Below, piece after piece: positions 1,339 through 62,578 of a stretch of 64,000 nucleotides of DNA. Source of the stretch: Terramyces sp. JEL0728 (Eukaryota; Chytridiomycota; Chytridiomycetes; Rhizophydiales; Terramycetaceae); assembly GCA_027603945.1 (NCBI GenBank), contig JADIIU010000068.1, positions 1 to 64,000 of the forward strand, given 5' to 3'. Made by a program: the position numbers and the translations under genes. Position 1 is the first letter of the stretch. Each line of letters starts with the position of its first letter. The notes below the pieces were generated by a model, which saw only the letters and a program-made list of their open reading frames with translations, was not told where the DNA came from and did no database searches.

Positions 1339-2721
1339 ATGTTACTACGGTTGCTACTAACACTCTTAACTGTAGCAGTTGCAGCACAAAAAGCATGTAC
1401 CGATCATAGCCAATGTCCAGGTTCGTTTTGTCAGTTTCAAGTAAATACTAATGGACCACCAAGTGGAACTTGTGCAACTGGTACTGCGACAGTTGCAAGT
1501 CCAACCAGTGTTCCATCAGCCGTAACTTGTGTAGCGAATATTACTTTAAGTGGTATTAATGGTGGATGTCCAAGTGGGCAGTTTTGTATTAGCCAACGCT
1601 GTACCTCCCCAACTGACGAAGCAAAGTCCTTCTTTACCCCAACAGTATTTAGTTTTTGATTATAGGTGATTGCAATCATTGTCGGGGTTGCTATTCTGGT
1701 ATTAGGGCTTTGTGGGTGCTGGATTTGTTGTTGTTGCAATATTTGCTGTTTTGCTGGAAGAACAGCCGGTAAAGCTACCAAAGGTGTTGTTAAGGGTGGT
1801 GCTGCTATAATTGCGGCTCCGTTTACTGGGTCCAAACGAGAAGACAGAAGTAGAAATAATAGAGATGATGCTAGAAGCAATAGAAGTAACCCAGCTCCGC
1901 CTCCTCCAACTGAAGAATATAGACCGCAAGCTCAACCTAAAGCACAAAAGACTGGCCCTGCACCACTACCTTCTAATTACCAAGCTCCTCTAAAACAATA
2001 TGAAACTCCAAAGCAAAAATTCGCTTATGAAGAGGTTGTTGAAATTGTGCCTATAGCCCCGCCTCCACAGCAGTATGCTAATTATCCTGCTCAATACCAA
2101 CCTCCTCCTCAAAATTACGATATTCCGCAATCTTATCCCCCTCAAAACTATTCTCAGAGCCCACCACAAAGCTATCCACAGAGTCACTCTCAGAATTACA
2201 GCCCTCAATTTAACGACATTACTCCGCCTACCTCATATGCCCCTATGGTTAGACAGAATTCAAAGAGCACCCACTACGACAGTCTAAAAGCTGAAAATCC
2301 AGTAAAAGAACTGGGCAATTTGAAACCGGCTGGCATTCCAGGTTCAAAGCCTTACAAACCAGTGATGAACCAAAAAGTTGGTCCTGTGGTTTCTGATTTG
2401 AAACAACCTCCGACTACACCTGGGTTCTTTGGTTTCTGGGACAAGAAGGGTAAATTCCACCAGGGCTTCACTGACGATGACAATTTTGTACACGGTGGAG
2501 TGTTTGATGACCAAGGGTTCTTCCATTTCGGGGTATTTGGGTCAGTAGAACCTATCTTGGTTGAAGATTCTATGATGGCCACTGAAAGAGTTGCGAAAAC
2601 AGAGACTGCAATCAGCATATCTGAACGCTCTGAGGTAGATAAAGCTGAAGTGAAAGATGCTAAAGATGCGGTTTCGTTTGATGCGACGTATCGTGGTAGC
2701 TTTGATGTACAACATAAATAA
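1339..2721 (+). CDS. Cys-rich single-pass membrane protein with Pro/Gln/Tyr-rich tail
   Basis: Two exons with a 21-nt intron at 1645-1665 give 453 residues. Residues 1-16 are a signal peptide (MLLRLLLTLLTVAVAA). A ~85-residue ectodomain follows with two similar cysteine blocks (CTDHSQCPGSFC and GGCPSGQFCISQRC). The intron sits exactly before the transmembrane helix (VIAIIVGVAILVLGLCGCW), which ends in ICCCCNICC, a likely palmitoylation cluster. The ~300-residue cytoplasmic part is rich in Pro, Gln and Tyr. Near the C-terminus is an aromatic/Gly patch (FFGFWDKKGKFHQGF and FDDQGFFHFGVFG) that looks like a short repeat. The layout is that of a surface receptor or adhesion protein with a protein-binding tail. 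I do not recognise a named family. Confidence 0.8.
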
Positions 2722-2803
2722 AACTATACTATATTTAAAGTAGCACCAAGAGTTGTTTGAAATTACTCTGCCAACTCTATAAAACTAAACCAATGTATTA
2801 AAA

Positions 2804-4284
2804 CTATTCTCCTAAATCCAATCCAAATAAATCTTGGGCCAGCAAATCCAAATCCTCAGGTTCATCGCCAAACGCTTCAAGCTTCAAGTTGCTCCCAAAC
2901 GCTGCATTCTCGGTACCTTTCTGTCTAGTCCTCTGATTCCAATGTAAAGCACGTTTCAAGCTTTCAAACCAGTCTATACTTGATGAATCTTGGCAGACTG
3001 TTGGTACTGGGTACCGGGATAGTTTGACCACAATGTAATCGCCTTGTTTGAGTTCTGTGCGGTGACGGCCATCGAACGATGCCCATGCGGTCGATCGAGA
3101 ATCGATAGGCACTTTGATTTGCAGTTCTGTAGAGTCTGGTAAGAGCATTGGTCTAAATGAGAGTGAATGTGCGCAAATTGGTGTAAGGAGAAAAGATGGG
3201 ACTTCAGGGTGTACTAGACTGCCCCCAGCTGCCAACTATCATTAGTGCTAATTACTGAATACGCTGTGCTGCCTGTCGGCGTAGATACCACCAAACCATC
3301 GGCTTGAACCGCCGTCAATGGTTTTTCTTCCACGTACAAATCAAGTTGAGACATGTACGCAGAAGGACCTCTATCTACCACCAAGTCATTTAATATTTCA
3401 AACGTTTCTCCAGGCACTGCTTTCTGTTCATTCAAACTAGGCACAGATTTGGATCTCTTTGAATGCTTTTTTGGTAGCGAAATATCATACGATTTTGCAA
3501 GCGATTCCATTGATCCACGATGATCTCGTTCTGGAGATCTACCTTGTCTTTCAAAAAAGGAATTTCTAGATACGTGTCGTCTTTCTGCGTTATTTACATT
3601 TACCGTTAAATGTGCTTTCTACATCCGGCATTCGTTCGTCAAAAGAATTAGTGACGGGTCCCACTTCTTTATCTTTGGCTCTCCATATAGTGCAAGATAG
3701 TCGCATTCGCATATTGACGTGAATTCCGTCTATTTGGTTTCCATGTTGAACCACTCTATCAAGCACGCTATCTATTTCGTTTATTTTGAAATTAGTCAAG
3801 AACCCTAATGAACCGAGATGGAATGGGATGATGGGCGGCACTTGAATCGTCTGGAACATCCAGGTTGTGTATAATACCGTTCCGTCTCCCCCCAGCGTAA
3901 TAATAAAGTCAATGTTATCTGGCTGGGAAGCGCACAACTCTGCAGTCCATCCTTTTAAAAATTTCGCATAATGTGGATGTTTCTGAACTATTTCAGAATA
4001 ATAAAATGAAGGGTTATTGAGTAGCTTGTTTTCAATATAAACAACTAGCTTCCGCTGGTCTATCAAATGCCTCGCCAATTCTCTAGTGAAATATACTAGC
4101 TTTTGGTCCATTAATTTTGCAACTATCATTACTGAGGATGGATGTTCGAGCTTCAGTATTGCCTTTCCTTCCGTTACAAATATTTACCTATTCCTTTGGC
4201 TGCATCTCTAACGCATAGTGCGGTTTCAGCCAAGTCATACGCTGAATGAGAATATTCTTTGTTTAAAGTACAAGGGTCTTTCAT
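2804..4284 (-). CDS. NAD(+) kinase
   Basis: Four exons with introns at 4168-4187 (20), 3585-3603 (19) and 3236-3255 (20) give 473 residues from ATG 4284. The protein phosphorylates NAD to NADP with ATP. The signature LGGDGTVLYTTW is near residue 125. The NAD-site motif STPTGSTAYS is followed, across the last intron, by LAAGGSLVHPEVP; that intron interrupts GSTAYS-LAAGG, and only its removal restores the family sequence. A low-complexity insert rich in Arg, Ser and Lys lies around residues 215-260. The start is 38 bp from the start of the divergent RING gene, so they probably share a promoter. Confidence 0.95.
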
Positions 4285-4322
4285 GCTGCGCGAGAAAATA
4301 GTTTGATTTTTTTGCTTTGAGG

Positions 4323-5200: not shown

Positions 5201-5310
5201 AATAAAGGTTAAATTTTTAGCGTCGTCGAAACATTAAGATGTGCTTAGAACAGGAAATTCAATTTCTTGCCGTCTTTTCCAACTGTATTTTCGAAATTAC
5301 AAGGACAAGT

Positions 5311-6248
5311 TTATTCCTGGTGTATCATTAGCGTCTGAATGGCTTTAGAAATGATATTGAAATTGTATTCCACCAGCCCCTGCTTTTCAAACTGCTCTTT
5401 TCTAATCAAACAAACCAAAACCAGTTTTCTAAATTAAATATTTCTTACTCGTTGATGGTATACAAATACAGGAGCATTCCGTTATCCAAATGAATAATAG
5501 AAAAAGACGGATTACTATTGGAATAAATAAACGTCATGTCCAGGATTACATCAATCATGTCCGAGCACAATTCGTAACTCTGCATATCGACTGGGATTAA
5601 ACGAAATTACCAGGAGAACTATCAGTAGCGATATATATCTTGCTGTTTAAATCAAAAATGAATGCTTTTTCAATGCCAGAGTTTGAACAAAACATATTCA
5701 AGAGGTTTTCAAGTGCCGGCAACTCCATAATCAATTTCTGTACAATCTTGGAAAACGCTTCAAAAATAGAGTGGTCGTAAATACTGGTTTGGTGGAATGA
5801 CAAGTTGATTTGTTTCTCATTGTCAATCAATTCATCATTGATCCGTTGAAACACATCCCGTTGAATATCAATCTTATCGTCATCTGATAACCCGTCGACT
5901 TTATGAATGAATATTTCAAAAGAAATCTTTGGGTTTTGGCTGTACGCATTCAATAGTATAGGAATAAGTTTATGCAGTGATTCGATATAATCGTCCTGTG
6001 CATCTACTATGTAAACAAGCGAGTTTGCAGTAAAAAAATCTACCTCTGTCTGGTCGGGACAGTCCCACACTTGGAAATCAATGAATGATGAAATGAAAAT
6101 CTTGTGAATTTTTAATGTTTGTTCCAGGTATAAAGTTTCATTCGCTTGCATTTTGTTGAATACTACATTTTGAATACTTGATTTTCCTGATCTTTATTAG
6201 CTGGATTTACTTTTTCTGTCCCATCAATAAGATTTTCAATTCACTCAT
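5311..6248 (-). CDS. GTR2: Rag GTPase Gtr2/RagC
   Basis: Four exons, introns 6192-6210 (19), 5591-5610 (20) and 5429-5448 (20), 292 residues from ATG 6248. Rag GTPases work as Gtr1-Gtr2 (RagA-RagC) heterodimers on the vacuole/lysosome and recruit TORC1 when amino acids are plentiful. The P-loop GQKKSGKSS is assembled across the first intron and runs into [18 protein letters not shown], typical of the RagC/Gtr2 branch. VWDCPDQ is the switch II region and HKVD the G4 motif. The C-terminal roadblock domain includes [15 protein letters not shown] and [10 protein letters not shown]. Iml1, the GAP of the partner Gtr1, is encoded at 31.8-36.2 kb. The start codon is 2 bp from the stop of the upstream LRR gene. 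Confidence 0.95.
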
Positions 6249-6250
6249 TT

Positions 6251-7273: not shown

Positions 7274-7325
7274 CAGAAAAACGCGTAAAATTCATGGTCT
7301 TATTGAGATTCAAGGGAATAATTGT

Positions 7326-7853: not shown

Positions 7854-8531
7854 TTATTTTCTATTATATGCTTTGAAACAAATGGTGTCCAGCAGATTAT
7901 CTTGGGAATACATCTTTCCTACCAATTCGTCGCCGTGTTCAACTGGACCAACACCTTCGGGAGTTCCAGTCAAGATCAAATCTCCTTTTTCCAATTTCAT
8001 AATAGAAGATACATGCTCAATGATGCGGTTGAAGCTAGTCAATTAAACAGTTACTTGAAGACCATATCTTTTGTATTTCCGTGTTGTTTCAATCCACCAT
8101 TCTTGAACAGTTTCAATTCTATATCTTGCAAATTGATCTTTCCCCTCGGTACCAGCCTTCCAACTGGTGTAAATGTATCGTAGCCTTTAGATACAGTCCT
8201 GTATTAACTATAATTACCATGGATTTCCTTCCCTTTTGGCTTTATTCTGCAAGTTACGGGCAGTCATATCCAAACACAAAACAATGGATTCGATATACGC
8301 ATCCGCATCAGACTGTTCAATATTCCTGCCGTTCTTTCCAATAACTATTCCCAATTCTATTTCATGGTGCACTAAGCAGTCTTTTGGTAACTCTATGTTT
8401 TCAGGTGCTTGAATTATTGAACTTGGCGGTTTGAGAAAGAGCAGCGGTTCTTTTGGTACATTGCTGTTCAATTCTTTTGCATGTTTGGAGTAGTTCCATC
8501 CTATTGCTATAATTTTTCTGCAATTTTGCAT
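7854..8531 (-). CDS. Fumarylacetoacetate hydrolase-family protein (FAHD1-like)
   Basis: Three exons, introns 8199-8217 (19) and 8035-8054 (20), 212 residues, close to the usual ~220 of FAHD1. FAHD1 proteins are mitochondrial oxaloacetate decarboxylases/acylpyruvases that need Mg2+. Visible family features are [14 protein letters not shown] at the start, [22 protein letters not shown] (metal-binding E-x-E), [15 protein letters not shown] across the first intron, and [13 protein letters not shown] near the end. Each intron restores a conserved block. No clear mitochondrial presequence is visible, though the start is basic. Confidence 0.92.
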
Positions 8532-11041: not shown

Positions 11042-11502
11042 TCACATTTTCATAGCAAGTGTCAATATTTCTCTTAGACTAGTATATTGGCGACGGATAA
11101 ATTGGTAGAACTCATAAAGGGTATGAAAGACTGGGTAGCGCTCCGTTGCATTGGCGTGAGGTATTCCAGATAGCCTTGCTGTGTTATGAATTTCAATTCC
11201 TCCAAGAAATCTTACCATTAGAATCACTCCAAGCTTAATCTAACACTCACCGTTGACGGAATCATTGTCACAAACGCTTTTGGCAAACCAGCCATAACCA
11301 CCAATTCAGCTCTGGGATTCAAGAATTCAGAGGAAGCCTCAAGGCCAATGTTCCGAACTTGAGCATAAGTCCTTAAACAACTAAACAAAAGTGAACCCAA
11401 CCTTTGGGCTCTATCTCTGCTTTCCGTTTTCGGATGGTAATACAAGCCGCAAAAGCACGGACAAATCTTTACAAAACATAGAAAGAGCGAAATGAATTTC
11501 AT
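11042..11502 (-). CDS. Hypothetical protein, gene structure uncertain
   Basis: Two minus-strand frames lie end to end: 11224-11502 (or from ATG 11568), with a signal-like start ([19 protein letters not shown]) and the segment [19 protein letters not shown], and 11042-11227 ([18 protein letters not shown]). Joining them needs removal of a 17-nt GT...AG segment at about 11235-11251, shorter than every other intron here. Without it the first frame simply stops. The 5' end overlaps the start of the DOMON-b561 gene on the other strand by at least 11 bp. I do not recognise the protein. Confidence 0.35.
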
Positions 11503-12946
11503 TTCACTAGTATTATTCACATGTACCTTTGATTTTAATTCTAGTTGCCCTTGGCGGAGCTTCGTCATCTTGCGCAGGAGAAACCATATGTGTTTATGGC
11601 AATGCTGATGGCCAAGGAAATGTGATTATTACTGTTCACGCAGCAGCAAAAGGATGGGTATCAATAATGAATGGCGATGATATGAGCACCGGCCAAGTAT
11701 TTGTGGGGTGGAAAAACAATGGAAATTACGTTATTTCAGACAGAAAATGTACTGGAACTACTCTACCAACAGCATTCCCTACAACCGCTTCAAAAATCAC
11801 TGAACTGCAAGTCAAACAACCTGCATGGGCAAACTTGGCATTCTCGTTCATCAGGCCATTAGCAAATACTGATATTAAAATTCAATCCACCAATGTTTAC
11901 AGCTATGCCTATGCTAATCAAGCGGTACTTTCGCCAAGTAACCCTAATTCAGCTTTTGGGATTCACGATATTCATGCTAAGTTTGGACCCTTGGATTTCA
12001 CCACCATTCCAAAGGGAAATAATACTCCTCCCCCAGTAGCTGCAGCAGCTCCAAGTCTTCCTATTTTGGTACTGCCTATTGGGTTTTCTTACTCTACACT
12101 TGTAGCAATTCATGCATATCTGCTCATGTTTGCTTGGATTGTTTCACCTTTCATTGGTATTTATATTGCAAGGTATTTAAAATCTGCACTTGGAGTGTGG
12201 TGGTTAAGATTGCACACTCTCTTCATGCTAATTGGTGTATGTATTTGTTCAGTTACAGGAATTCTATTTATATTCTTGTATCGACCAGGTCCTCACTTTA
12301 ATGTGGAAGGAAGTAATCCCCACAAGGTAATCAATTTTAATTGCAGTTGATTGGTATAGTAGTAACTGGCCTTTTGCTTGCCCAAATGATTCTTGGGGTT
12401 GTGTGCGACCAACTGTTTGAAATTGATAGAAAATCCATTCCGTGGTATGATAAGGCTCATTGGTGGATCGGTAGATTAACTTTCTTGGTTGCTCTCGTCA
12501 ATATTTACTATGGGATTGCTCTATTCCAAAGCACATTCAATTCTGATATGCCCTCATATTTGCCGTATGTTGCTTATGTGTTGGCTGGTTTAGGTGTCAT
12601 AGCAATGATTGCAGGACATTTCATTCATGGTGGTCAGGATAGTAAATTATAAATAACATTAGATCATGTGGCACCAGCTTCAGAACCCGTAAAGCAGTCC
12701 AATTTCAAACCACCTTCTGATTACAGCCCATACAATTCACAAGATCGCTACAAGTCGCAAGAAAGACCACAAGAGAGCTATCAACCCAGTGACAGATACA
12801 ATTCCAGTCCGAGATCCCCAACTGGAAGTGGTTACTCTAGTCCTAGACCCCAGGAAAGGTCTCAAAGAACACAGGAAAGGGACAGAAGAGGGCAAGACAG
12901 AGAAAAGGGGGATAGATACAGGGACGACAGAGACTACCGTCGCTAA
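11492..12946 (+). CDS. DOMON-cytochrome b561 membrane protein
   Basis: Four exons, introns 11523-11544 (22), 12327-12346 (20) and 12642-12662 (21), 463 residues. A signal peptide ([18 protein letters not shown]) completed across intron 1 leads into a DOMON domain (residues ~20-170, GWVSIMNGDDM, VGWKNNGNYVISDR). A short Pro/Ala linker is followed by the b561 core: five hydrophobic helices with candidate heme histidines in AIHAYLLMFAWIV, RLHTLFMLIGV, PHKLIGIVVTG and KAHWWIGRL. This architecture carries electrons across the membrane, usually from ascorbate, to ferric iron or monodehydroascorbate. After the last intron comes a ~100-residue disordered cytoplasmic tail rich in Pro, Ser, Arg and Gln with repeated QER/RPQE runs. 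Confidence 0.92.
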
Positions 12947-13103: not shown

Positions 13104-15835
13104 TCAAGAATCACTACCGCCTTTACCAGCAGTCATATCAACAACAACTTGGTGCCTAATAGTTTCCAATTTAGTTTGTGAAGTTCTAGTATTAATATGG
13201 TCTTACTGTAAATCTCTAGTTGACGCTTTATCTTCTGGAATATGAGTAATTCCTTGCAGTTTCAAGTTACCCCTATCGTCACATATTCAGTTACCAATAT
13301 TCTCTGTTTTTGGCGAGCCTACTTGTTATAGAAGGAATAGTCTGGTATGAATCTAAGGCGCCGAACAATGGCTGTACGACGTAATCAATGAAACCGATTT
13401 GACAACTGGCTACATTCACATTATCTCTGTCCATATATGGAGAAACTGGCAGATTCAGCTTCTTTTCCAAGTCGCCTTGGCACACAAACTCTGTCATTAT
13501 TAGTCTGGTCCACTGTTTGTAGATTGGTAGATCTTTTGTTGGATTAGATACATCGGAGCATTTTATCATGATTTTGAATAAGAGCATTCTGTCTTCTCTG
13601 GTTTCATACGGATCAAATGTCTCTGCACTGGCAACTTTCGATTTGAACATGGACAGTAGGGCAAAGTGCTGGGTCAAATCTAAGTTAGAACCAAGAACCT
13701 GTTGCTAATACCAAATCTACTACAATTTCTCTGATGGATTTGAACTCGGCTTTTGTTAGGTGGGCTAAAAAGTTATTTTCTGGCTTGGCCAATACAACAA
13801 ACGAAGATGCAGAGTGATGGTTTTCTAGTACGGCTTTATCATTGTACAGAATGGCTTTTGGATCTGAAGTTGCTACCAAAAAGTTATTTGTGTATCCAGG
13901 GTGGTCGTGGTCGTGGATAATTGCTGCAAAGTACATTCCTAATAGCTCAATGTCTGACCATATATCTTTAATTTTTGTAGTGTTTGCTAAACAGTGGATG
14001 CAGTGTAGTACGTCAGTGGCATGAAGAGAATTATGATCTATGGTTAATTGTTTGTTACATGGTAAATCTGCGTGGTAGCCTTTTTCAATAGCGCTAATGC
14101 AGTTTCCAAATTTATCTAAAGGTATAAGGAATGCTTCAAACAGCTTTGCCTGGGCAAATAGGTGGTGTGACAAAACCATCAGGGTTCGGTTACCAGTAGC
14201 TCTCGACAATTCAAACAAATTAAAGTCGTATTCATTATAGCGTGTAAGTAAAGTTGCGATTTCTTCAATTTCAGGAGGATATACTGCCCTTGGATCCTGT
14301 GCGATATTCGAGATACGGCGGTCGTCGCCAGTGAGCGGTGGAGTGGCCACGACGGCACCGGTAGCATTAACTTCCGGCTCTGCTGCAGCAGGAGTACTTT
14401 CTTCTTCGTTGGCAGGTGTTTTAGCATTAATAGGGGGGTTTTCAGCTGTGGTAGAAAGTCTTCTTCTGTAGTTTGATTTTCCTCTTCCTTTTCGTCGTCT
14501 GGCTGCAATTTCAGAGAATAGCCATGCCTGATGTTAATTCGTAAATACCTGCTGTTCATTATCCATAGAATCACCAATAGTACTTTCAAAATCTGGAGTC
14601 AGCAAGTTGGAAGATCCAAGGAGAGAAGTAACTTGGCCCAGGGCTAACAAGTGCCGAGAAGACAAACCCGGATCAGCCATCACCGATCTAATAACCATCA
14701 TGCTTCTTTCCAAAGGCGACTCGATGGATTTAACCGCTTTCTGGTTGTAAGACTTGGCCAAGGTCAAAAGTTGGTTTTTGAGTTTGGCATTATGCTTCTT
14801 CATATCTTTGGACATCAAGAACTGCATTCTGTAAAAGTGTTCTGTTTCATAAGAAGTAAAAGTAACAACTCCAGAAGTTATAATGATACAAGCAAAGCCG
14901 AGCCCAAAAGCACCATAAACTTCGCTTGGTATGTTACTATTCAGTATCATTGCAACGATATTCATTATAATCCAGACAAATGTGATTGTGCCAACAGTTA
15001 AAAGTGTATGGATGAATCTAGCCCTAACCCCAAAGAATGAAAGTAGCAGCAAGGATGTCATTACTAAAGTTGGCTGTAAAAAGTTCAATTGCGCTTCAAT
15101 TACAAATGTCCTGACTCCGACACCGATAAATATTTGAAAGAAAACCACTAGCGATGTTACCAAATCTATGGATTCGTAGAATACTTGGGGCTTGATGTAG
15201 TAGCACGACCCAAGTCCCAATATGTAAGGGACTAAAACTACTACAAACCAAAATGCGGCATCATAAATCGGATCGTAGGAATTACAAATGTAATTTGGGT
15301 TGCATTTGTTGCTACGATTAACATTATTTACCAATACACTCCGGTAGGACATGTAATGCTTGCTCCGCTATTAATTGCTGGCAAGTACAGGGTCGAGTAT
15401 TGATCGTAGCCTATTGTGTCGCTTGCTATAAAATATATGTATAATACTGATAGTACGGAGAATAGTGCTGTTAATGTTTTCCTCCATCTGGCGAGATTCA
15501 ATGCTACAAAATAACTCGAAAATTCTGATTCCAAATCTGGAGATCTGAATGATAAGAACGCAGAGAGCAGTGAAGCATGATCTTCTAGTGTCTGACTCTC
15601 TGTCACGTCGTGTGCTTCGTTCTTTAGCTTGTCGGGTGAAGTTGCCATAAATGAATCTCTGCGCACTGAATCCAATTCGTCTTGGCCAGGGTGCTGTTGT
15701 ACTCTGACTTTATCTAGCAATTATAATTCACAAACCTGTAAATGTAATCGTCTTTTTCACTTCCATTCCGTCGTTTATTTCTGCGCCTGTTGATACTTTC
15801 GGAGATACACTCATATGACTGTTTTGCTTATTCAT
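13104..15835 (-). CDS. Membrane-anchored cyclic nucleotide phosphodiesterase (6 TM + PDE)
   Basis: Seven exons, introns 15714-15735 (22), 15312-15331 (20), 14528-14548 (21), 13680-13698 (19), 13273-13294 (22) and 13186-13206 (21), 868 residues from ATG 15835. The N-terminal half has six membrane helices (LTALFSVLSVLYIYFIA, FWFVVVLVPYILGLGSCYY, LVTSLVVFFQIFIGVGV, TLVMTSLLLLSFFGV, FVWIIMNIVAMIL and GLGFACIIITSGVVTF) with a Cys-rich loop after the first. A charged coil follows (FYRMQFLMSKDMKKHNAKL), resembling the exit helix of membrane adenylyl cyclases. The C-terminal class I phosphodiesterase domain has the metal-site motifs HNSLHATDVLHCIHCL, IIHDHDHPGYTNN and KCSDVSNPTKDLP, so it should hydrolyse cAMP and/or cGMP. 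No retinal lysine is evident, so it is not clearly a rhodopsin-PDE. Confidence 0.9.
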
Positions 15836-48287: not shown

Positions 48288-50031
48288 CTAAAGTGATAGA
48301 GTCAAGATCCTCTCATAGCACCAAGAGGTAAGATGCTGGTCTATAGTAGCACAGCGCGGCCATTTCGTTTCATCCAATCCCATTTCGCAGCACTGTACGA
48401 GCAAGTCAAGCTCGCTCAAAATCTTTTCCTTGGAATATTCGTCTAGCGAATTGAACTTATCTTTTAAATCTTGATGGTAAGTTGTCTTGACTTTGGATTC
48501 CTCCAATTGCAAAATGTATTCAATCAGAAAATCTGCCAGAGAGGTAATCATTTGCAGCTCCTTTGTAGTCCCAACCAATTTTGCCATCTTTACCAGAACC
48601 GGATAAAAGAACTCTGCAAATTCTGTCAGTGGTAAAATCAAATCTTCAATAACCTGCTTGTCAACAGCGTCTTTGTTTTCAGTATTAACATTACTATGTT
48701 TAAGTAGTGCTTTCAGAATTCGATCCACCAATTTAAAATAATTCCCAACGAATTCTGAAAGTGCGACACTCTGTCTGAATTCATTGAGAAGCTTAGGAAG
48801 GAACTGGAATAGGTGGACAAAAAGATCGTGCTGAGCTGGAGTATTCAGATGTTCGATGAACGCCTTCTTTTCATTTAATCTGATGGAGAGTCTAAAGTAT
48901 TCAATCAAAGTGTCGCTGGGAACTGGAATATCTTCATTCTTGGCAACTGTTACAAACTTTGTATCATCGTCCAAGCTAGAGAGCACATTTTCTTCTACCA
49001 AAGTATTAATTTTTAGTATTTCAGTCTCTGATAAATTTCCCGCTATGCTTTTTAACTGACGACTGGTTTCATCGTACCCACACAAGTGCGAAGCCATCCT
49101 TTGAAATAAAGAATAAACACCAGGCGAAGGCTGCCATAGGAACAGCTTCACACATTGCCTGATAAATGGAGCTCTACCAGTTAACTACAATTACGGATTC
49201 ACAATTTTCAACGAAGTCACTAATAACGAGGTTGGTATCTTGTTGTAGATGGCAGACATTTTTTCCAATCTTGCAGGCTCGTCCTAAATTAAACGTTATA
49301 TACCAGGATGTTATTCAAGACATGAGCAGCTGCATTGATAGCGGTTCTTACCAGCTCTTGATGCATTGCAGGCAAGTCCTTCATTTTCGGATATTGGCGT
49401 AGCAATGCCCACCAAGGTTTAATGTCGGCTGAAGAGAGCTTCTTCATGTCCTCTTTACACGGTGGGACGCAGCGCAGAAATATTCGCAGCGACTCTACCA
49501 TTCTATTGTATTTGTTCATCCTATTTGCGTCAAATTGTGTAGCATGTGTAGGCCTATCTAAACTAAATGAATTGGTGGCTGCATATCTGTAATATAAATA
49601 TCTATTCCAAATTGAAATTTCGTTTCTGATTCCCATTATTTCTTCCAGATGTAGACGATAAAACAACGAGGTATAAAATTTCAAAAAAGCCTAATTAAAT
49701 ACGGTATTACTAGAGCATCCATTTTGGTGGCAATCAACAAGTGCCCTTGGCTGGCTGCGTACGATTTATCCATCAGACTGTCGAACGCAGCCAAGTATTC
49801 TGGCCCCATCTTGGAAAAGAATGGAAGAGCTCGAAGGAACTTTTTGTATAGCCTCCTGGATAATTCCGGATACTTTGGACATGAATTTTCCTCTGATAAT
49901 TTATTGATGGCCAAACTATTTCGCGGGATTCTTGTTAGGACGGTCGCATTCTCTCCAAGAGCGGTATACCATTCGTTTACTAAAATCGATTCCCATATAT
50001 AAGTATATAGGACTGTCTCCTGTTTGAACAT
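48288..50031 (-). CDS. PX-associated (PXB/YPR097W)-like protein
   Basis: Four exons, introns 49691-49710 (20), 49284-49303 (20) and 49174-49194 (21), 560 residues from ATG 50031. Joining intron 49174-49194 creates NPAPFIRQCVKLFLWQPSPG followed by VYSLFQRMASHLCG. This resembles the P-x-P-F-x-x-x-x-x-x-LFL-x-x-P-F-x-x-x-SL-x-Q-R block of fungal PX-associated proteins such as yeast YPR097W. The rest is helical and unrecognised (YPELSRRLYKKFLRALPFFS, EISIWNRYLYYRYAATNSFS). No PX domain is seen. The start is uncertain: two other frames are open upstream to about 50224, and an additional 5' exon is possible. Confidence 0.55.
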
Positions 50032-50331: not shown

Positions 50332-52016
50332 ATGGCAACTCAAATCGCTGGACAATACGATACTATTCTTATTTTAGACTTTGGGTCCCAATATACTCAT
50401 TTAATTGCTCGCAGAATTCGTGAATTTGGCGTGTATTCAGAATTATTGGCTTGCACCACCAAAATTGCGGATTTGTCATTCAAGCCAAAAGGTGTAATCC
50501 TTTCTGGAGGACCATATTCTGTTTATGAAGCAGGATCACCACATGTCGACCCCGCTGTCTGGGATTTAAAAGTGCCTGTTTTAGGAATCTGTTACGGTCT
50601 TCAAGTACTTTGCATTTAATCCAGGAAATGTGCCATACTAAAGGTGGAAAAGTTGAAAACTGCGAAAAGAAAGAATTTGGAAAGACGGTCATCACTGTTC
50701 TCGAAGAATCCAAATTGTTTGAAGGTTTGGCAAAGGAAATCTCAGTATGGATGAGCCACGGAGATCAAGTAACCAAAGTGCCTGAGGGGTTCACTACAAT
50801 TGCAACTACTGAAACTGCTCCTTTTGCAGCTGTTGAAAATGCCGCGGAAAGAATTTACGGGATTCAATTCCACCCTGAAGTCACTCACTCCTTTTCGGGA
50901 AAAGAGCTATTGGAAAACTTTGTAGTAAAGATTTGCAAGGCACAAGGCTCATGGACAATGGTTAGTGGTATCTCACTATAGAAAAACTTTATTGAAACAG
51001 AAATTGAACGCATCCGCAATCAAGTTGGACCAACTGCGCAGGTAATTGGCGCTGTAAGTGGTGGAGTAGATAGTACCATTGCTGCCAAGTTGATGAGCAT
51101 GGCTATTGGCGACAGATTCCATGCAATCTTGGTGGACAACGGGGTAATGAGATTAAACGAATGTGTACAATCTAAAGTTCTGTTGCAAGAGCATCTGGGA
51201 ATTAACCTTACATTGGCAGATGCCAGCGACCTATTTTTAGGAAGATTGAAGGGTGTTATTGTAATTTCCATTGATGATAGAACCCAGAACAAAAGAGAAA
51301 GATTATTGGAAATACATTCATCGAAGTATTTGAAGATGAAGCTGCCAAGATTGAAAAAGAACAAGAAGAAACAGGAAAGGGAAAAATTGAATTCTTGCTT
51401 CAAGGTATTCATTTTTAATGCAAGGAACTTTATATCCTGATGTTATTGAGTCAGTTTCATTCAAGGGCCCATCTGCTACCATCAAGACCCACCACGTACG
51501 GAATTTCTAACGTAGAATGTTGGAGGCTTGTTGGAAGATATGAAATTAAAGGTGATTGAGCCTCTTCGTGAGCTATTTAAAGACGAAGTCCGTGAACTTG
51601 GTTCCCTTTTGAAAATTGATGACGAACTAGTTTGGAGACATCCTTTCCCTGGGCCAGGTATCGCAATCAGAGTATTAGGGGAAGTTACTCCTTCCCAGGT
51701 TGAAATTGCAAGAAAAGCTGATTATATTTATATTGAAGAAATTAAAAAAGCTGGGTTGTACCGTAAAATTTCACAAGCATATGCTGCACTCCTACCGGTG
51801 AAATCTGTGGGGGTTATGGGCGACAACAGAACATACGAGCAAGTTATTGCGCTCAGAGCAGTCGAAACTACAGACTTTATGACTGCAGATTGGTTTGAAA
51901 TGCCTTATTCTCTTTTGAAGAAGATCAGCAACAGAATTATTAATGAAGTAGATGGTGTAAACAGAGTGGTTTACGATATTTCGTCCAAACCTCCAGCCAC
52001 TATTGAATGGGAATAA
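50332..52016 (+). CDS. GUA1: GMP synthase (glutamine-hydrolysing)
   Basis: Six exons, introns 50605-50624 (20), 50961-50981 (21), 51261-51280 (20), 51405-51424 (20) and 51496-51515 (20), 527 residues, full length. It makes GMP from XMP, ATP and glutamine. The class I amidotransferase domain has the catalytic GICYGLQ (Cys) with intron 1 directly after it, and IQFHPEVTH (His, Glu). The ATP-pyrophosphatase P-loop is [12 protein letters not shown]. The C-terminal dimer domain has [31 protein letters not shown] and the closing [14 protein letters not shown]. All five introns restore invariant sequence, so this gene is the best calibration for the 20-nt intron rule. Confidence 0.98.
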
Positions 52017-54709: not shown

Positions 54710-57700
54710 TCAAGATACAGCCAGATTTAGCCAAGAAGTCATACCATCAAAAAACACATTCATTCTTCCGAGCAAGTTTCTTTCCTCAGCTTCAATTTCC
54801 GGGTCTGCTTCTTCAATGCTTAGTCTTTGCTGGTACTTTAATCTGTGCAACAATGCTTTCTGCAGCTTTCCTTGGCCTTTGCGCAGAGATTCAAAATTAT
54901 TGCCTTCAATCCAAGGCAGTGGAAGCTTCCCAATCAATGCGGGATGCATGTACGAATGCAGCTGCGCATCTTCTTCAGCGTCGTCTACTGCTGTATTGTC
55001 TGATTCTTCTCCATACCTTAACATGGCTGATTCCAGAGGAACATCCAAGATTCCAGAAACTCTGGTCATTGGAGGCTCAATATGTCTTTGCATTGTGTTT
55101 GTGTCGACTCCATTATTCACTGGTAGGTATCCGGCATTCGGGTTGGCATCGAGGACTGGGTTTACTTCCGAGGGGTCATGAAATGGATTGAAATCGGTGT
55201 TTGGTTGAATAATACTAAAAGTACTGAACCGTTTACTAGGCAACACTTCATCGCCGGAGGAGGAATCATCGGACAAGTTGATGTGCACTTGATCTTGCTG
55301 ATGGCTCCGACTTAAAGAAAATGAAGACAGCCTGTTTTTTAGCTTTCTTTGTGGTAATCTGTCGATGCCAGCCAACTCTTGTTCAAACAGCAGTTCAGGC
55401 GGACTAATTTGGTAACTCGATTGGCCATGATTCAGTTCGGTTTCCTCGTCCGATTTACCAAACGACCGAATCGCCTTTCCAATGATTTCCAAGGGAATAT
55501 TCCGAATCTGTTTTTCATATGCATCGCTGAGCAGCTTATGGGTGAAAAATGTAATACACAATAATGGGATCACTCCAATGACCATTTGTGCGTAGGCAGA
55601 TAAACTTTCTGCACTTCCAGGATTAGCAGTTGCAGAAAAAGAACTATCTTCTGCAGATTTCAATGCTAAAACACCCATCATCGATAGCTGCATAATTGCG
55701 AGTCCGGCCAGGCATCGGTTGACCACATATGGAGTTGCGACACCTTTCGATTCATACAGAGGAATATGAACGTACATCAACAGATACTTGTAAATGAAAT
55801 ATGCAGTCGCAAAGAACAGTGTACAGAATGGAAGAATCAGGGGCTGAATGGAAAAATACATGGTACCGATGATAAATACCTAAAGTAAACAGGTAAATAC
55901 CAAAATTGGCAATGGATAAATGATTCCATAATGAATTACTGTCAGAATAGAAGGGTAATATGCATCCGAGGTTTGTCTGGGAGTGCTTTTTTGCAAAGTT
56001 GTGAGTCTGTACATCCACGTCAAAAATAACGGAGCCGCAAGTAGCAATTGGGCTGGCAAAATCGCAGTGCTCTGTAAAATGATTAGATTGATGAGGGTAA
56101 TCGCGGACTAGGTTAAATAGAGTTACTTTAGGAAGCATCTGCCCTAATTTTTCAATAACCTTTTGCGGATTCCACAAGATGATTTCATAAATAAAGTTTG
56201 CAAATGGAATTACTAAAACTACATTCCAGAGTTGGTAAAAGAAATATCTATAATTAGATTGGCCGTACTTGGACAGCAAACTTAGCTGGATCCAGCTTTC
56301 TGCTTCAATTCCTTGAAGTTGGCACAAAACTACATCAAAAACAAGTTACGCAACAATACGCTGGGCAAGCAAGAGTTCCATGCTGCAATTAACGTGGGAG
56401 GAATGACACCCTGGATGAATTGGATCCATGTTTCAGGAAGTTCTGCCAGAATTGGTTTGAGGATTGGAAAGATGCTCGCTAATTGCTCCAAATCGTTTAG
56501 CCGATCAAAGGAAGAAATTACAAAGGCAGAGGAGGGAACTAGCAACGACATCACAGACATTACAAAAACCATACGGAGCAATTTTGTGTAGCTATGTGCA
56601 GCTTTAGAGGAAAGGTTCTGCCAATATATATCCCTGGGTTCCGGAGCATTCTTTACAATGCATGAAAACGGATCCATATGGCTAACAGCTTGACTAACGA
56701 TAGTTGCCGAAATTGGAGATTCAAAGGACACGATTCCTATAGATGTTGCTGCACTGAGATGGGGATTCTTTCTGAATTTTTCAACCATTGAATCCCAGTG
56801 CTTGAAATTTGCCACGTAATTTTGAGTCGAATCAACTGCTTCTCCAAATAACCCCCAAACCCCGGGTTTGTGCGTTGGCCGATAACTTGGCTCTATGCTA
56901 TTATATCGGCTCATAATTTCTTCAACCGCAACTTCCACAGCTGTAACTTGGCCTCTGAAGGTTGCCGTTGGGATTGCAATAGATCTTTCCAATTTTGGGA
57001 GACCATCTAGTTTGAGACATAACTTTTCAAGCTTTTCCAAGTAGTACAGTCGTTTCTGAACGGCTTGTTGAAGCAAGGACCAATTCCTACACAACACAAC
57101 ATTTTCTACTTTTCCAACTTGAAGGTTGTTGAAAAATATAGACAAATTGACTTCATTTCTCAATTCTTTTGGGATACCAAACACAATGACGCTACGCATT
57201 TCAATTTTGCTGAGCTTCGTTCTCTTTAGAGCATACTCGTCGTACTGCAACTTTAAAGAAATGTAGTTGCGGTAAAATACTATGATAAACCCATAAATTA
57301 TGAAAGATACAATCCAAACGCATCCCAAAATAACCTTGAGATAGAATGACCGCTGTGGAACCTGAGTTAATCCAATACTACGTTTTCAATTGACAATGAC
57401 GGGATCATTCTTGCCTCAAGTTGGTAGTATCCTGTAGCATTCCTTAGATCAGGTGGATTCGAATAGTAATTAATAGGACCAAGGATTGCAGCTCCGATAA
57501 TTGATAATAAAAAGAAAAGCTTATATCCCATTTTCAAGAACCGTAAAAACATTACACCATCCAATCCAACTGTATTGATCAGGAAAGTTTCCGGTGTGCG
57601 ATATACTGTAGCAATCCATGCAAATATCCCATGCGACAAACTGGGAGGCCGTCCCCTGGAAAGCATTTTCCTTGGTGCATATATATCGACTTGCCACCTG

Positions 57701-57853: not shown

Positions 57854-57900
57854 TTTTCAAGTCTAAATTTTCAAAAAATAATTTGAACCGAATTGGTTTA

Positions 57901-60495
57901 TTAAAAAATGTCTTCACCGTGCAATTCATAAACGGCCTTTGCTGCATTCCAGATCGCAAGGATACGATCATCGATCACAGATCCAAATACAACCCCGTCA
58001 AGAGTGAATTTCAACTTGTCAATTTCCACTTGGAATTCCCTAGTCATTTGACGGAAGAGGCCAGAAGTCCATCTCCAGTAGACTACGTCCTCTGCACCGA
58101 TACCCGATAAAATTTCAACAAATTTCTAATTGAGCAACAATTACCTGCATGCAATGGATAATAGTATCCTTGCGCTCTTTTTGAGCGGCTTCCAAAGCTC
58201 CTTCTAACGAAGCCACGCTTTCTTGAATGTCATCTATATCAACAGAACTTACCATTCATCATTTCGTCCGACGGAGACTTTTTTTCCAACCTGAGTGTAA
58301 TCTGTTGTACTCTCACAGTCAATTTATTCAACGTGGTAGAGAGTATATTCCATACAAAGAACTTGGTGCAGTTCTTTTCCAAGTTTTCTGCGGAGAGGAG
58401 CCAGGTAAATATAGCTTTAGCCTCTATGACTTTGTAGTTAACCAATTTGGTGAGAATGATTTCCAAGAATTGCGGATTGTTTTCCCAGAAAGCGTGAGTG
58501 ACTTTGGTAGTGAGCAATTGATGCTCTTCGGTTTCATTTATCTTTTGCAAGAGCGGCAGATATCTTTCAATCACCCCTAATAGATGGGAGAACGACTTGC
58601 TTCCTTGGTACATAATACACTGCAAAAACGCTTCGTGTGCGTTTTCGTAAGAAGTCTTTCCAATAAATCTTTCAGCGAAATTGCTTGGGTTTTCTGCTAT
58701 ATAACTGTCGATGGATTTCAGCACTTCCTCGATAAGGTTAGCATCGTCTCTATGCGAAATTTTGGAGTTTAGTTCTCTGATCAAATCAAACAAGTTGTCG
58801 TCTGCTACTATGTCTGATTCTTGGAATGAAAACAAAAACCCTGGTGCGGAAGTGGCAAAGATCTGACCTTGCAATTCAAAAGTTTCAGGAATACTATTTT
58901 TGATTCGGTCATAATAAGCTAAACGGACGCAGTTGTGCAATGTTTCTCTAACAAAAACAAATTTGCCACAAGTAGGATCTGCGTCTAAAACATACTCCCT
59001 AACATAAACCAGCAATTACCAATCAGACCATTTCCAAGAGAACCCAAAGTTACTTAGATGACGCGCGAAAAACTCGCTAAATCGTTTAATGCATTCGACA
59101 TCCATGCCGCCAGCGCCATTTTCGCTGTCTAACCTGGCGAAAAGCAACTTGATTGATCTTCCTAAAACACTAGGTATTTTATCCAGAGACTCTTTACACA
59201 AATCAATGACGAGAGTTGAATAGTACACAAATCTTTCGTGGCACTTTGGTAATCGAAACATTTCTTGGAAAATTGCTTCAATAACAGCTTCATAAACTTG
59301 TATACCCTGTTGCTCAATGTAACTAGTATTGAAATATTGTTCAGTGTTCAATAAAATCAATGCACATTCTTTGTGATTCAACGAAAACATTCGGATGATG
59401 TCGATGATCGAATCTTCCAAAATATGTCTGGATAATAGTGTGGTCGATGGAAGATTGCAAATTTTCTTCTAAATTAAATGACACTCACATTTCCTGGGGC
59501 ATTAACATTGTCATCAAATATCCAGAATTTGGTTTGGTACAAGAATTTGACTTGCGTGACACTTGTAGGAATGGTGATGGCTGGGATATCATGGGGAATC
59601 TGCCTGCTGTTAGCCTCGGCAAATTTCTCATTATATTTTGGAAGGATTGGAGTTTCCCAGTTTGAATTTTTCAAATTCAGAGTCTGTTCCCATAACAATG
59701 TCAATTTCTACGGTAAAAACCCGATTACATCTACTGCTTCATAAGGCTCACCTTCCACACAGTCTCTATAAACCAACAAAGCACTATTTGCCGCACTAAT
59801 CCCACTGGCATTTACATTTTCAGCTCTTTGAGCCATGTAATTCTGTAATTCACCCATGATTCTTTCCAACTCCATCAAATTTCTATCTCTAAGCTGAACT
59901 GCAGCCCAAGGTATAGCAGCCATTACCACGTAGACAAATGCATCTGCCCTTTCTTGATTGACATTGATTTCCGAAGCAACAGCCAGGAAAGTGTCAAATA
60001 GCCCAATCAACTGTCCCGGCAAGATAACTCCAGCATTGACACATTCTGCAAAATATCGAATCACAAGCTTGATTTGTCTGAATGATGATGATTCCAGTCC
60101 TGCATTCAAAAGTTCTGCTGCCGCGACAATCATATCTTGTCCAATATCGAAATTTCTAGCATTAAGAATCCCCGTCAATGTTCCATATAAAGAAATATTG
60201 AACGAAATCGGAAGACAAGATTTCCACGACTTGATGAAAATATCACGAGGCTGGTATTCCTTCTCCAACAGATCAGCTAAATGTTCCAAATGCTCTTGCG
60301 GTTGATGCTAAGGTTAAATGAAACCAACTTTATCTCCAATTTTGAAAAATAAATTGACAATCCGTTCGTTCTGTTCTTCCTCAGGCGACTTCATTATCAC
60401 TGGATCCTCTTGATACTGTCCTGACGAGCTGTATCTTTTCTTGTAGCTTTTGTAACCTCTTTCTCTGTCTGTTTTTAGCAACAATTCTTACTCAT
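57901..60495 (-). CDS. NCBP1: Nuclear cap-binding protein subunit 1 (CBP80)
   Basis: Eight exons, 816 residues. Introns: 60469-60491 (23), 60308-60328 (21), 59708-59728 (21), 59469-59488 (20), 58999-59019 (21), 58234-58252 (19) and 58126-58144 (19). The first coding exon is only 4 nt (ATG plus A). CBP80 binds CBP20 and the mRNA cap and supports splicing and export. A basic start (RERGYKSYKKRYSSSG) is followed by the MIF4G region (SLYGTLTGILNARNFDIGQD, IKLVIRYFAECVNAGVILPG, MAAIPWAAVQLRDRNLMELE). MIF4G-like 2 and 3 follow (FRLPKCHERFVYYSTLVIDL, AVLFSYLAFLS-like helices at the C-terminal half). The last exons supply YWRWTSGLFRQMTREFQVEI. Length matches the ~800 of the family. Confidence 0.93.
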
Positions 60496-60776
60496 TCGAG
60501 ATTTTATAAAAAAATTTGCTAGGGAACCTATGCAGATGGATGCTTTTCGATGAAAGACTAAGAAAACCCTATCGATATTAACGGTAGGTTGAATTGGCGG
60601 ACCAAGATGGTTCAGATTTAAACCCAAGACTAGAAACCCTAGGAATTCCACTTTTAGTATTATTGAATAAACTCTCATTCATAATTTCATTTTCGTCTCT
60701 GCTCATCAATTTCTATTGACTGACACTTGCAAACATCCAGACTTTTTTTTGTTTTTGAAAACGATCTGGTCTGAAA

Positions 60777-61350
60777 ATGACTGAGGATAAGGACAGGGCA
60801 GAAAGAGTTGAGCATCACAAAGTGGTTGTCTCCAACCTCACAACTAAAATTAACGATAAACATATAAAGGAGATTTTTGGAAAGTTTGGTAAAATCAACT
60901 ACACTGATATTTCTGAAAAGAAACTAGGTAATAGGAATTAATACAGGCAATGGAGAAATTTCAAAAAAAGCCTATGTCTCATTCGCTACAAGGGCAGATG
61001 CGGAGGCTGCAATTAAACACATGGATAAAGGAATCATTGACAAGGCAGTGATTGAAGTATCGTTCTTTACACCATTCAGACGGGAACGCCCAAGTAGAGG
61101 AAGAGAATATGGACAAACAAGACGCAGATATAGTCCAAAAAGAAGATCCCCATCTCCAAGAAGACATGAACGGTCCCCGCCAAGGCGTTATCGTTCTCGC
61201 TCCCGCTCTCCTGTTCGTAGACGCTCCCCTCCAAGAAGAAGATCTGTATCCCCTGAAAGAGAAAGGGCTCGTCGTTCTCCTTCGTATTCGCCAAAAAGAG
61301 ATAGAGCATCCCCTCGTTATTTACCAAGAAGTCGTAGTCGCTCACGTTAG
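60777..61350 (+). CDS. RNPS1-like SR protein
   Basis: Two exons, intron 60928-60946 (19), 184 residues. One RRM: HKVVVSNLTTKINDKHIKEI, FGKFGKINYTDI, joined across the intron to GNGEISKKAYVSFATRADAE. The RRM is followed by an RS domain (RRRYSPKRRSPSPRRHERSP, ending SRSRSR). RNPS1 is part of the exon-junction and ASAP complexes and promotes splicing. RRM followed by RS with the VSFATRADAEAAIKHMDKG pattern fits RNPS1; Tra2 is less likely because its RRM is flanked on both sides by RS regions. The 280 bp upstream show no gene. Confidence 0.85.
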
Positions 61351-61422
61351 CAGGTTAAATAAATATTGTTGTAACCATATTACTTTGTGATTTGTTCGGG
61401 TTTTTTTTTCACCACTTGCAAA

Positions 61423-62578
61423 ATGTCAATGCCAGGATTTGGAGTGGATACTCCTCACTTGTCTCCCAAGTTGGAGCAGAGGTTGAAAAAGGCCCATGAA
61501 GTATTAACCAGGAATAGAACTTCTTTATTATTGACGTTAAAATCAGGAGAAAAGCTTTCATATGCAGAAGTTGGTGATAGAAATGGAATTCCCACTCTGT
61601 GGATCAATGGACCAACGGCAAATAGATTTCTGATTGCTTTATATGACGAAGTTTGTACGGAATTGGGGGTTCGCTTAATCTCGTTTGATCGTCCTGGGAG
61701 AGGAGCTTCATCTCCATTGAAAGACCCTAAATGTTGGACATTTGCTAGCTATGCAGGTAACACTATTCTAAAAAGATTATATTGATGAAGCAACCGATAT
61801 ATTGGAGATCCCCAAGTTCTATGTGGTTGCACATTCCTTTGGGACTTCATATGCACTTGCAGCTTATGAAAAACTATCCCACAAAATTGTAGGAGCATTC
61901 AGATTTTTAGCTACTTGGGCACCATCTAATTTACCATGTATGCCTTCATCATACGCACTTCAACGCTCATTACCAACTTCCGCACTACGCACATTAACAT
62001 CATTTTCTCAGTCATCCTGGCTGTCCTCTCTTACTTCAACTTCGGTTCCTTGCCAAATGGGTGCTATTGGTGCTAGAGAAAAAGATATTATGAGTGATGG
62101 TTTTGGTAAAAGGATACTGGAAAAATGTAAACTGGAACATGATGGAGATAGTTACAAAGCTTACGAATTGGATTGGCTATTAGCATTGGAAGTTCAACAT
62201 AAATTCTCTTTTGATCATCGACAACTAAAATGCTCTGTAAAATGTTGGCATGGAATGGATGATTCAATTACACCGCTAGGAGCTGCGATGTGGATGCAAA
62301 GGGAAATGGACCACTTTTTGTTGTATGCGGTTGAAGGAGCGACACACAATATTCATTTTGATTCTGCGATCGTTAAAGCTGTCTTTGCAGATATTTGTGC
62401 AGATGCTCTAGCTAGAAAAGCAAAGGAAGCGGAACACGCGCAAGAACAGACTAATGAAGCTATCCCAGCAGTAACTGATACCGCTAGTGCAGCCGCCGAA
62501 CCTGCTGCCACTGAACCAGCCCCAGATACTAACCCAGCAACACAATATCCCGAGGAGCAAAATGTTTGGGAACAATAA
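61423..62578 (+). CDS. Alpha/beta hydrolase
   Basis: Two exons, intron 61757-61775 (19), 378 residues from ATG 61423. Fold features: LWINGPTANRFL (oxyanion strand), LISFDRPGRGASS, nucleophile elbow VVAHSFGTSYALAAYE (Ser in HSFG), VKCWHGMDDSITPLGAA (acid Asp) and GATHNIHFDS (His). Splicing brings the helix DYIDEATDILEIPKF next to the elbow. The last ~55 residues are Ala/Glu/Pro/Thr-rich and disordered. It is a lipase/esterase-type enzyme; the substrate cannot be told. Confidence 0.88.

Follow-up and report, generated by a model that had tools for sequence, protein, structure and literature searches.

The locus and its tiny introns

The window, by which we mean the whole stretch analysed here, comprises the first 64,000 nucleotides (nt) of contig JADIIU010000068.1 of the chytrid Terramyces sp. 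JEL0728 (C68:1-64000; assembly of 15.0 megabases (Mb) in 231 contigs). Its genes are interrupted by GT-AG segments of about 20 nt, which the initial annotation had read as spliceosomal introns. In our final models the window contains 69 introns in 37 gene models, with 67 of these introns measuring 19-22 nt (13, 30, 19 and 5 introns of 19, 20, 21 and 22 nt, respectively) and distributed over the three phases as 30/20/17, while relaxed settings gave 75 tiny introns. A genome-wide population of predicted 19-22 nt GT-AG introns was confirmed at the level of gene structure, and we consider it very probable that the segments represent genuine spliceosomal introns of the U2 type in a Rhizophydiales chytrid, near-minimal in size, built from two modules, defined by spacing and excised by a major spliceosome of largely conventional make-up. 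The genes of the window with domain or structure matches, and their tiny introns, are:

2804..4284, minus strand: NAD kinase (Pfam, PDB match); introns 4168-4187, 3585-3603, 3236-3255
5311..6224, minus strand: Gtr/Rag-family GTPase (Gtr2 in the initial annotation; Gtr1_RagA, 206 bits; P-loop restored); introns 6192-6210, 5591-5610, 5429-5448
7854..8531, minus strand: FAA hydrolase family (Pfam); introns 8199-8217, 8035-8054
13104..15648, minus strand: cyclic-nucleotide phosphodiesterase (PDEase_I); introns 15312-15331, 14528-14548, 13680-13698, 13273-13294, 13186-13206
20877..22640, minus strand: GTP_EFTU-domain GTPase (gene model); introns 22412-22432, 21202-21222, both 21 nt and in frame with stops
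25042..25969, minus strand: RRM protein, SART3/Prp24-like C-terminal part (Lsm_interact, 21.3 bits, cut-off 21.4); introns 25708-25726, 25614-25632, 25414-25433, 25309-25329
34376..36215, plus strand: Iml1/DEPDC5 C-terminal part (DEP, DEPDC5_CTD); introns 34395-34414, 34866-34885, 35182-35201, 35669-35688, 35927-35946
41170..42989, minus strand: arrestin-like gene (Arrestin_C, 34.3 bits spliced); introns 42377-42396, 42048-42066, 41754-41774, 41436-41455
48288..50031, minus strand: DUF3818 (PX-protein) gene (Pfam, 43 bits spliced); introns 49691-49710, 49284-49303, 49174-49194
50332..52016, plus strand: GMP synthase; five introns of 20, 21, 20, 20 and 20 nt (50605-50624, 50961-50981, 51261-51280, 51405-51424, 51496-51515)
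58115..60394, minus strand: nuclear cap-binding protein subunit 1 (CBP80; MIF4G, solved CBP80); introns 60308-60328, 59708-59728, 59469-59488, 58999-59019, 58234-58252

Length distribution and abundance

Gene structures were predicted in a sample of 264 kilobases (kb), consisting of the window and a single 10-kb piece of each of the contigs C1-C20, to which the counts below refer unless the window or the genome is named. A flat gene finder, which used codon statistics, ATG, stops and GT...AG introns with lengths of 15-120 nt equally likely and was trained on 31 long open reading frames, placed 30 of its 54 introns at 19-21 nt. Retraining of this flat model gave 43 of 84 introns at 18-23 nt, and once donor and branch patterns had been learned, with lengths still flat over 12-300 nt, 121 of 165 fell at 18-24 nt. 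As GT-AG ends were required in the main runs, the excess at 20 nt was measured under this constraint. When GC donors were allowed, 4 of 240 calls were GC-AG, with none for an arbitrary control dinucleotide. Two 21-nt GC-AG candidates start with GCAAGT, a strong remaining donor, as if compensating for the C. Independently of the gene finder, a motif-only scan of the window, which looked for a donor-like hexamer with a branch-like motif downstream of it and close to an AG, gave 19 matches at 19-21 nt versus 1.4 expected (mean of five shuffles), and at most 4 at any other length from 14 to 79 nt.

The final gene finder, which uses the learned donor, branch and length distributions, gave 235 introns in 135 gene models, with 227 at 19-24 nt and 8 longer. 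The short introns comprised 62 of 19, 96 of 20, 52 of 21, 16 of 22 and 1 of 24 nt (19-22 nt in 226/227, mode 20 nt), and together with the flat-prior run this bears out the peak near 20 nt noted in the initial annotation. No two of the 227 sequences are identical. Introns were present in 95 of the 135 gene models, at 1.74 introns per gene model and approximately 1.3 per kb of coding sequence, which extrapolates to ~13,000 tiny introns genome-wide.

The initial annotation had counted 102 introns in the window, all but one of 19-23 nt. The intron population itself was recovered, with 67/69 introns of the window at 19-22 nt, but the count was not reproduced and the length statement does not extend to the genome, as homology-supported introns of 44-215 nt occur outside the window. 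Our own 67-75 introns are likely to be a lower bound, because stopless in-frame introns are nearly always missed, and the tiny intron in the first gene of the initial annotation was missed as well; in a simulation of detection we recovered only 31/360 stopless 21-nt introns, compared with 348/360 of those with a stop and 356/360 introns of 20 nt. The same bias may explain why 52/53 introns with a length divisible by three carry an in-frame stop, versus 99/174 of the others. This excess looks like the pattern of Paramecium, but since detection bias may cause it, selection for stops was set aside and no claim is made.

Removal of the tiny introns restores conserved proteins

Controls were based on 65 well-scored genes picked for having introns of 18-24 nt only (179 introns, all of which are returned by the trained run by construction). 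On these genes the flat run placed 53 of 81 calls at 18-24 nt, and no intron was called after the tiny introns had been removed. Insertion of shuffled intron letters at random places gave 5/58 calls at 18-24 nt in the flat run and 4/17 in the trained run, and the reversed window yielded five low-scoring models above the loosest threshold, without introns of any length.

Ten window genes were compared with Pfam in spliced form, and eight with the introns retained (seven of these ten plus GMP synthase). Splicing raised the scores of seven of the eight genes compared both ways, in agreement with the restoration of frame and conserved residues reported in the initial annotation, including the P-loop of the Gtr/Rag-family GTPase and the GGDG motif of NAD kinase. 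NAD kinase gave 78.8 bits (NAD_kinase) and 135.6 bits (C-domain) when spliced, versus no match and 49.3 bits when retained; two MIF4G domains of CBP80 (135 and 129.4 bits) and the RRM match of the gene at 25042-25969 (105 bits) were seen in the spliced form only. PDEase_I rose from 115.5 to 269.5 bits, FAA hydrolase from 119.6 to 173.3 bits, and DEP and DEPDC5_CTD from 53.9 and 39.7 to 65.0 and 53.8 bits. The EF-Tu-like GTPase gave practically equal scores and is uninformative, because both its introns are 21 nt long and lie outside the scored domains. Spliced CBP80 aligned to its solved homologue over residues 6-716, and NAD kinase to its PDB match in two stretches.

GMP synthase gave GMP_synt_C and GATase matches of 159.4 and 149.8 bits when spliced, whereas the retained form had only a partial GATase match (78.5 bits) and no GMP_synt_C. 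The two introns quoted for this gene in the initial annotation (50605-50624 and 51496-51515) were recovered exactly, while a 57-nt intron of the flat model was rejected, as it covered a genuine tiny intron together with an incorrectly set exon. The spliced protein of 527 amino acids is 94.3% identical, without gaps, to P0001 of Boothiomyces sp. JEL0866, also a member of the Terramycetaceae (Rhizophydiales). In a database search with a 515-amino-acid query that had one wrong intron, P0001 was the top match, followed by Globomyces, Gorgonomyces, one unnamed protein, Polyrhizophydium and Batrachochytrium. It is on this one protein that the organism was placed among the Rhizophydiales chytrids; a scan of viral contigs turned up no relative. 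The sequence of P0001 agrees with removal of the tiny introns here, and if the genome of this relative has such introns, its annotators may already have dealt with them.

Anatomy of the tiny introns

Among the 227 tiny introns, A predominates at donor position +3 (208) and is common at +4 (138), as is T at +6 (145), while position +5 is shared between T (99), G (52), A (49) and C (27); the commonest donor is GTAATT (38/227). The 3′ terminal triplet is TAG in 150 and CAG in 50. A branch motif of the form YTNAY was found in 194 (TTAAT 69, CTAAT 37, TTAAC 26, CTAAC 14), and the TTAAY/CTAAY motif ends 4-5 nt before the intron end, matching the CTAAC/TTAAY-like motif that the initial annotation had placed near the AG. 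The distance from the first G to the branch A is 13 (115 introns), 14 (88), 15 (22) or 16-17 bases (2), which by motif fit puts the branch A at intron base 14-16 in 225/227. From the branch A to the last G there are 4 (9 introns), 5 (107), 6 (99) or 7 bases (12). With 3-4 bases separating the branch A from the AG in 206/227, there is no room for a polypyrimidine tract at this place; further upstream, between donor and branch motif, T makes up 44% of the bases.

Splicing machinery

A full-length, canonical U2 small nuclear RNA (snRNA; 140 bits) was found with the standard branch-pairing sequence GUGUAGUA, to which the YTNAY branch motif is complementary. The genome also contains genes for Slu7, Prp18 and SF1, and a U2AF65 gene that scores 251.7 bits when read through and 334 bits when spliced, with a family cut-off of 310.3 bits. 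In its spliced form U2AF65 shows a pair of RRMs and a UHM, and its N-terminus matches the U2AF59 segment of solved structures, the part that binds the small subunit. A METTL16-family methyltransferase match was present as well; this family also matches in bacterial and archaeal controls, and the gene is likely to be orthologous to METTL16. We had expected a loss of U2AF, SF1, Slu7 and Prp18, but all four are present, and accessory-factor loss of the mikrocytid or microsporidian type was not seen among the components tested (these four, with U2AF represented by U2AF65, and the METTL16-family match). In yeast, Slu7 and Prp18 are dispensable at short branch-AG distances; that both are kept here suggests that they have some other role or serve the rare longer cases.

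The snRNA and SF1/U2AF survey suggested in the initial annotation thus recovered U2, SF1 and U2AF65, but not U1 and U6. For U1, Rfam model RF00003 gave no match in the genome, and a U1 pattern gave 4 matches versus 8 for its control. For U6, one pattern gave a single match, inside a gene recognised by eye as PDHB-like, and the other gave none. Two RF00026 matches (27.4 and 26.9 bits, cut-off 44) were rejected as spurious, being weak, mutually related and without the expected AGC triad. This weak U6-like match sits in two closely similar places, L023 (C199) and L024 (C111), and is perhaps a repeated element. The U1 and U6 genes are either absent from the assembly, interrupted (U6 possibly by introns) or too diverged.

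The segments appear to act as spliceosomal introns, as the initial annotation proposed, because they combine GT-AG ends, a branch motif that fits U2, occurrence in three phases and restoration of frame and conserved residues with the presence of spliceosome components.

Longer introns in ribosomal-protein genes

All four cytosolic ribosomal-protein genes that we recognised lie outside the window and carry longer introns near their 5′ ends, five in total, of 45-215 nt:

RPL22 (locus L036): intron of 155 nt
RPS3 (locus L007): intron of 45 nt
RPL7 (locus L006): introns of 215 and 123 nt, plus one of 21 nt
RPL18 (locus L045): intron of 47 nt directly after the start codon

Their donors are GTATGT, GTAAGT, GTAAGG, GTAAGA and GTAAGG, so that +5G occurs in 5/5 longer introns versus 52/227 tiny introns (Fisher p 0.0008). 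A search for long introns by pattern alone returned largely noise, and as it pre-selects +5G, the comparison does not draw on it. The junctions of RPL22 and of RPL7 intron 1 lie at residues 3-4; in both cases an upstream start must be joined, because reading back from the second exon reaches a stop after 3 or 39 nt without passing an ATG. The branch A lies 6-7 bases from the last G in all five, which is towards the high end of the values seen in tiny introns. The tight branch-to-AG spacing emphasised in the initial annotation is therefore present, but it is not peculiar to tiny introns. The donor-to-branch distance, on the other hand, is at least 36 in the homology-supported longer introns versus 13-15 in 225/227 tiny introns. 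On these predicted positions the tiny class is marked by its donor-to-branch distance of 13-15 nt, with a 3′ module common to both classes.

A mitochondrial L24-like gene (L034, recognised by eye) has tiny introns only. In yeast, RPL7 introns host small nucleolar RNAs (snoRNAs), and RPL7 intron 2 here (L006:3082-3204, 123 nt) contains a candidate C/D-box snoRNA like snR39/SNORD2 (28.7 bits, cut-off 40, E 0.005). The PDHB-like gene (L029, minus strand, 1566-1609 of the reverse complement) contains 44 nt that may be one intron or adjoining GT-AG units of 21 and 23 nt; if read as two, both units must be removed to keep the frame.

A two-module model and its alternatives

We propose that the tiny intron has a two-part structure, in which a donor module (GTA-A-t-T) precedes a compact 3′ module formed by a TTAAY/CTAAY branch, 2-3 spacer bases and the AG. 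The two would be joined such that the branch adenosine becomes intron base 14, 15 or 16. The 3′ module would be read as one unit, with SF1 and U2 on the branch and the nearest AG taken, without a polypyrimidine tract between them. A loop of ~13 nt needed between donor and branch may set the lower size limit, and deletion pressure may have driven nearly all introns to this minimum. Within such a short loop, pairing at donor +5 would be largely dispensable and the donor chosen by spacing, so that intron definition would rest on the fixed donor-to-branch distance, while longer introns would still need +5G.

Several points weigh against this model. The branch positions come from a motif fit in which the motif could end only 2-8 nt short of the intron's 3′ terminus, and the +5G trend among the tiny introns themselves is weak (30/158 at 19-20 nt versus 22/68 at 21-22 nt, p 0.038). 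As U1 and U6 were found by neither Rfam model nor pattern in the whole genome, and U4 and U5 were not searched for, the pairing claims draw on U2 alone. The set of long introns is small and was spotted after the fact, by eye, among the models, and the RPL18 stretch was fetched on purpose. The best protein alignment spans only 3/5 of the junctions (those of RPS3, RPL18 and RPL7 intron 2), for which +5G is 3/3 (p 0.013), and a modelled intron of 197 nt in L010, of unchecked quality, starts with GTAATT.

The alternative that survives best, although we consider it unlikely, is that SPF45 (RBM17) replaces U2AF on the tiny introns, with U2AF kept for the longer ones. Human short introns with a truncated tract provide a precedent (PMC8363638), and most introns here leave 2-3 nt between the branch motif and the AG, which would suit this route; however, the few longer introns, whose branch A is only 6-7 nt away from the last G, likewise lack a tract. 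Less probable again is a reduced or specialised spliceosome without SF1/U2AF or the second-step factors Slu7 and Prp18, to which the branch-AG distance of 5-6 nt might point. The missing space for a 3′ polypyrimidine tract and the failure to find U1 and U6 would fit such a loss, whereas, among the components searched for, the presence of the SF1, U2AF65, Slu7, Prp18 and METTL16-family genes and a normal U2 speak against it, as does the coexistence of longer introns with conventional donors.

We regard as very improbable an artefact in which sequencing errors, pseudogenes or a gene finder bridging frame breaks with arbitrary GT-AG pieces produced the pattern. The models are indeed ab initio, and a 239-nt call proved wrong and a 158-nt call at 19344-19501 is only a candidate, but the peak under a flat prior, the motif-only excess, the lack of calls in spliced coding sequences, the few calls with shuffled inserts, the restored Pfam domains and the gap-free GMP synthase alignment are hard to reconcile with this explanation. 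Removal at the DNA level or by a non-spliceosomal route is scarcely credible. DNA elimination is known in ciliates, but nothing was found in favour of it here, and GT-AG ends, a U2-compatible branch motif, three phases and a fungal genome with core spliceosome proteins oppose it.

Other gene models of the window

Apart from 1339..2721, the remaining window genes with tiny introns were defined as gene models, with names, where given, assigned by eye:

1339..2721, plus strand: Cys-rich membrane-protein-like gene; 21-nt intron 1645-1665, exons 1339-1644 and 1666-2721
11492..12946, plus strand: cytochrome b561-like gene; introns 11523-11544, 12327-12346, 12642-12662
16717..17449, plus strand: gene; intron 16946-16967
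17621..19135, minus strand: transporter-like gene; intron 18152-18172
19264..20826, plus strand: gene; introns 20196-20214, 20311-20331, 20553-20573, and candidate 158-nt intron 19344-19501
22848..23771, minus strand: gene; introns 23678-23699, 23514-23533
23806..24932, minus strand: gene; introns 24644-24663, 24266-24284, 23953-23972
26091..27118, minus strand: HAT-repeat-like part, probably of the same SART3-like gene as 25042..25969; intron 26591-26610
28103..30645, plus strand: gene; introns 30292-30313, 30438-30456
31759..34099, plus strand: upstream Iml1-like part; introns 31975-31994, 32593-32612, 32795-32815
36284..39155, plus strand: gene; intron 36369-36387
39256..41013, minus strand: gene; intron 40034-40054
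44435..45163, plus strand: gene; introns 44464-44484, 44627-44647
45364..46313, minus strand: gene; intron 45579-45598
56330..57531, minus strand: gene (low score, 6.9); intron 57362-57381
61429..62578, plus strand: alpha/beta-hydrolase-like gene; intron 61757-61775

In the gene at 1339-2721, the first of the initial annotation, removal of the 21-nt intron leaves one frame open to the stop at 2721; the 239-nt intron that our model had placed there was wrong. Reading the 158-nt intron at 19344-19501 as two tiny introns breaks the frame, and homology support for the 158-nt version is also lacking; the spliced gene had no Pfam match. Two RNA-processing genes share the window, the SART3/Prp24-like gene (25042-27118) and CBP80 (58115-60394). 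The contig starts with tandem arrays in window positions 1-237, consisting of a 48-nt unit repeated 3.5 times (1-169) and a 27-nt unit repeated 2.3 times (176-237).

Comparison with other minimal introns

Several lineages are known to have introns of 15-25 nt, namely heterotrich ciliates, mikrocytids, the nucleomorphs of chlorarachniophytes, Paramecium and Trichomonas (PMC9505925, PMC10245619, PMC5014332, PMC12316389). The statement in the initial annotation that this size is not typical of fungi agrees with a survey of 644 genomes, in which the short-intron example has a mean of 63 bp and the sections used give no case this short (PMC8476143). Among the matches listed for open-licence literature, no titles or abstract beginnings described chytrid introns of ~20 nt, and the parts of three chytrid papers at hand gave no intron length distribution (PMC5364385, PMC13391722, PMC11797018).

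Introns of Stentor coeruleus are 15-16 nt long, with GT-AG ends and a branch A at base 10-11 without strong consensus (PMC9505925). Shared features are the GT-AG ends, the placement of the branch A 5 nt from the intron end, the listing of U2AF1/U2AF2, and the start of the most abundant Stentor intron, GUAAUU, which corresponds to the commonest donor here. The tiny introns also resemble those of Stentor in their narrow lengths and fixed branch base, with the 8 further modelled introns being longer. Stentor differs in that only 18% of its genes have introns, versus 95/135 models here, and in the position of its branch A, which lies here at base 14-16 in a clear TTAAY motif and alongside a longer intron class. 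By analogy, Stentor (branch A at base 10, 5-nt tail, GUAAUU) would thus show the same solution, one step shorter (PMC9505925).

Chlorarachniophyte nucleomorph introns, at 18-21 nt (cited in PMC10245619), are of nearly the same length, but belong to a relict endosymbiont nucleus instead of a 15-Mb fungal nuclear genome. Mikrocytids share the very narrow range (16-17 nt), and differ in having a strongly reduced spliceosome of 17-19 proteins and, in M. mackini, 224 introns, compared with ~13,000 extrapolated introns and the presence of the four tested factors here (PMC10245619). Yarrowia, Trichomonas and Giardia share a branch anchored 2-4 nt from the AG and the lack of a polypyrimidine tract; they are treated in that study as intron-poor with uniform motifs, and the sections used report no intermediates, as opposed to ~1.3 introns per kb and softer motifs here (PMC2483917). 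Intron-poor genomes have ~0.1 introns per gene or fewer, a level exceeded by the 1.74 per gene model found here. Saccharomycotina share the +4A preference together with a METTL16-family gene, but limited +5 variation is reported over 240 species (227 Saccharomycotina plus outgroups), versus +5G in 52/227 introns here (PMC10581693).

What is new here is a predicted class of longer introns, with +5G and nearly the same branch-AG spacing, in four ribosomal-protein genes. Tentatively, and with somewhat more doubt than conviction, we suggest that one largely complete fungal spliceosome may follow two donor rules, recognising ~13,000 tiny introns by a fixed loop of 13-15 nt that removes the need for +5 pairing, and a few older, longer ribosomal-protein introns (one with a snoRNA candidate) that keep +5G, in which case the GUAAUU of Stentor would be a convergent signature of minimal introns.

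For annotation, these findings carry the warning that many genes of such species would be broken up by read mappers or gene finders whose minimum intron length exceeds 20 nt. In the literature cited here, it is relict nuclei, parasites with stripped spliceosomes and ciliates that have the smallest introns. A nuclear genome of a fungus that combines 20-nt introns in their thousands with the classical factors of intron recognition would provide a system in the kingdom of the yeast models. It would open to study the lower size limit of introns, the action of U2AF and SF1 without a polypyrimidine tract and the question of when pairing at donor +5 is needed, with the longer introns of the same genome serving as built-in controls.

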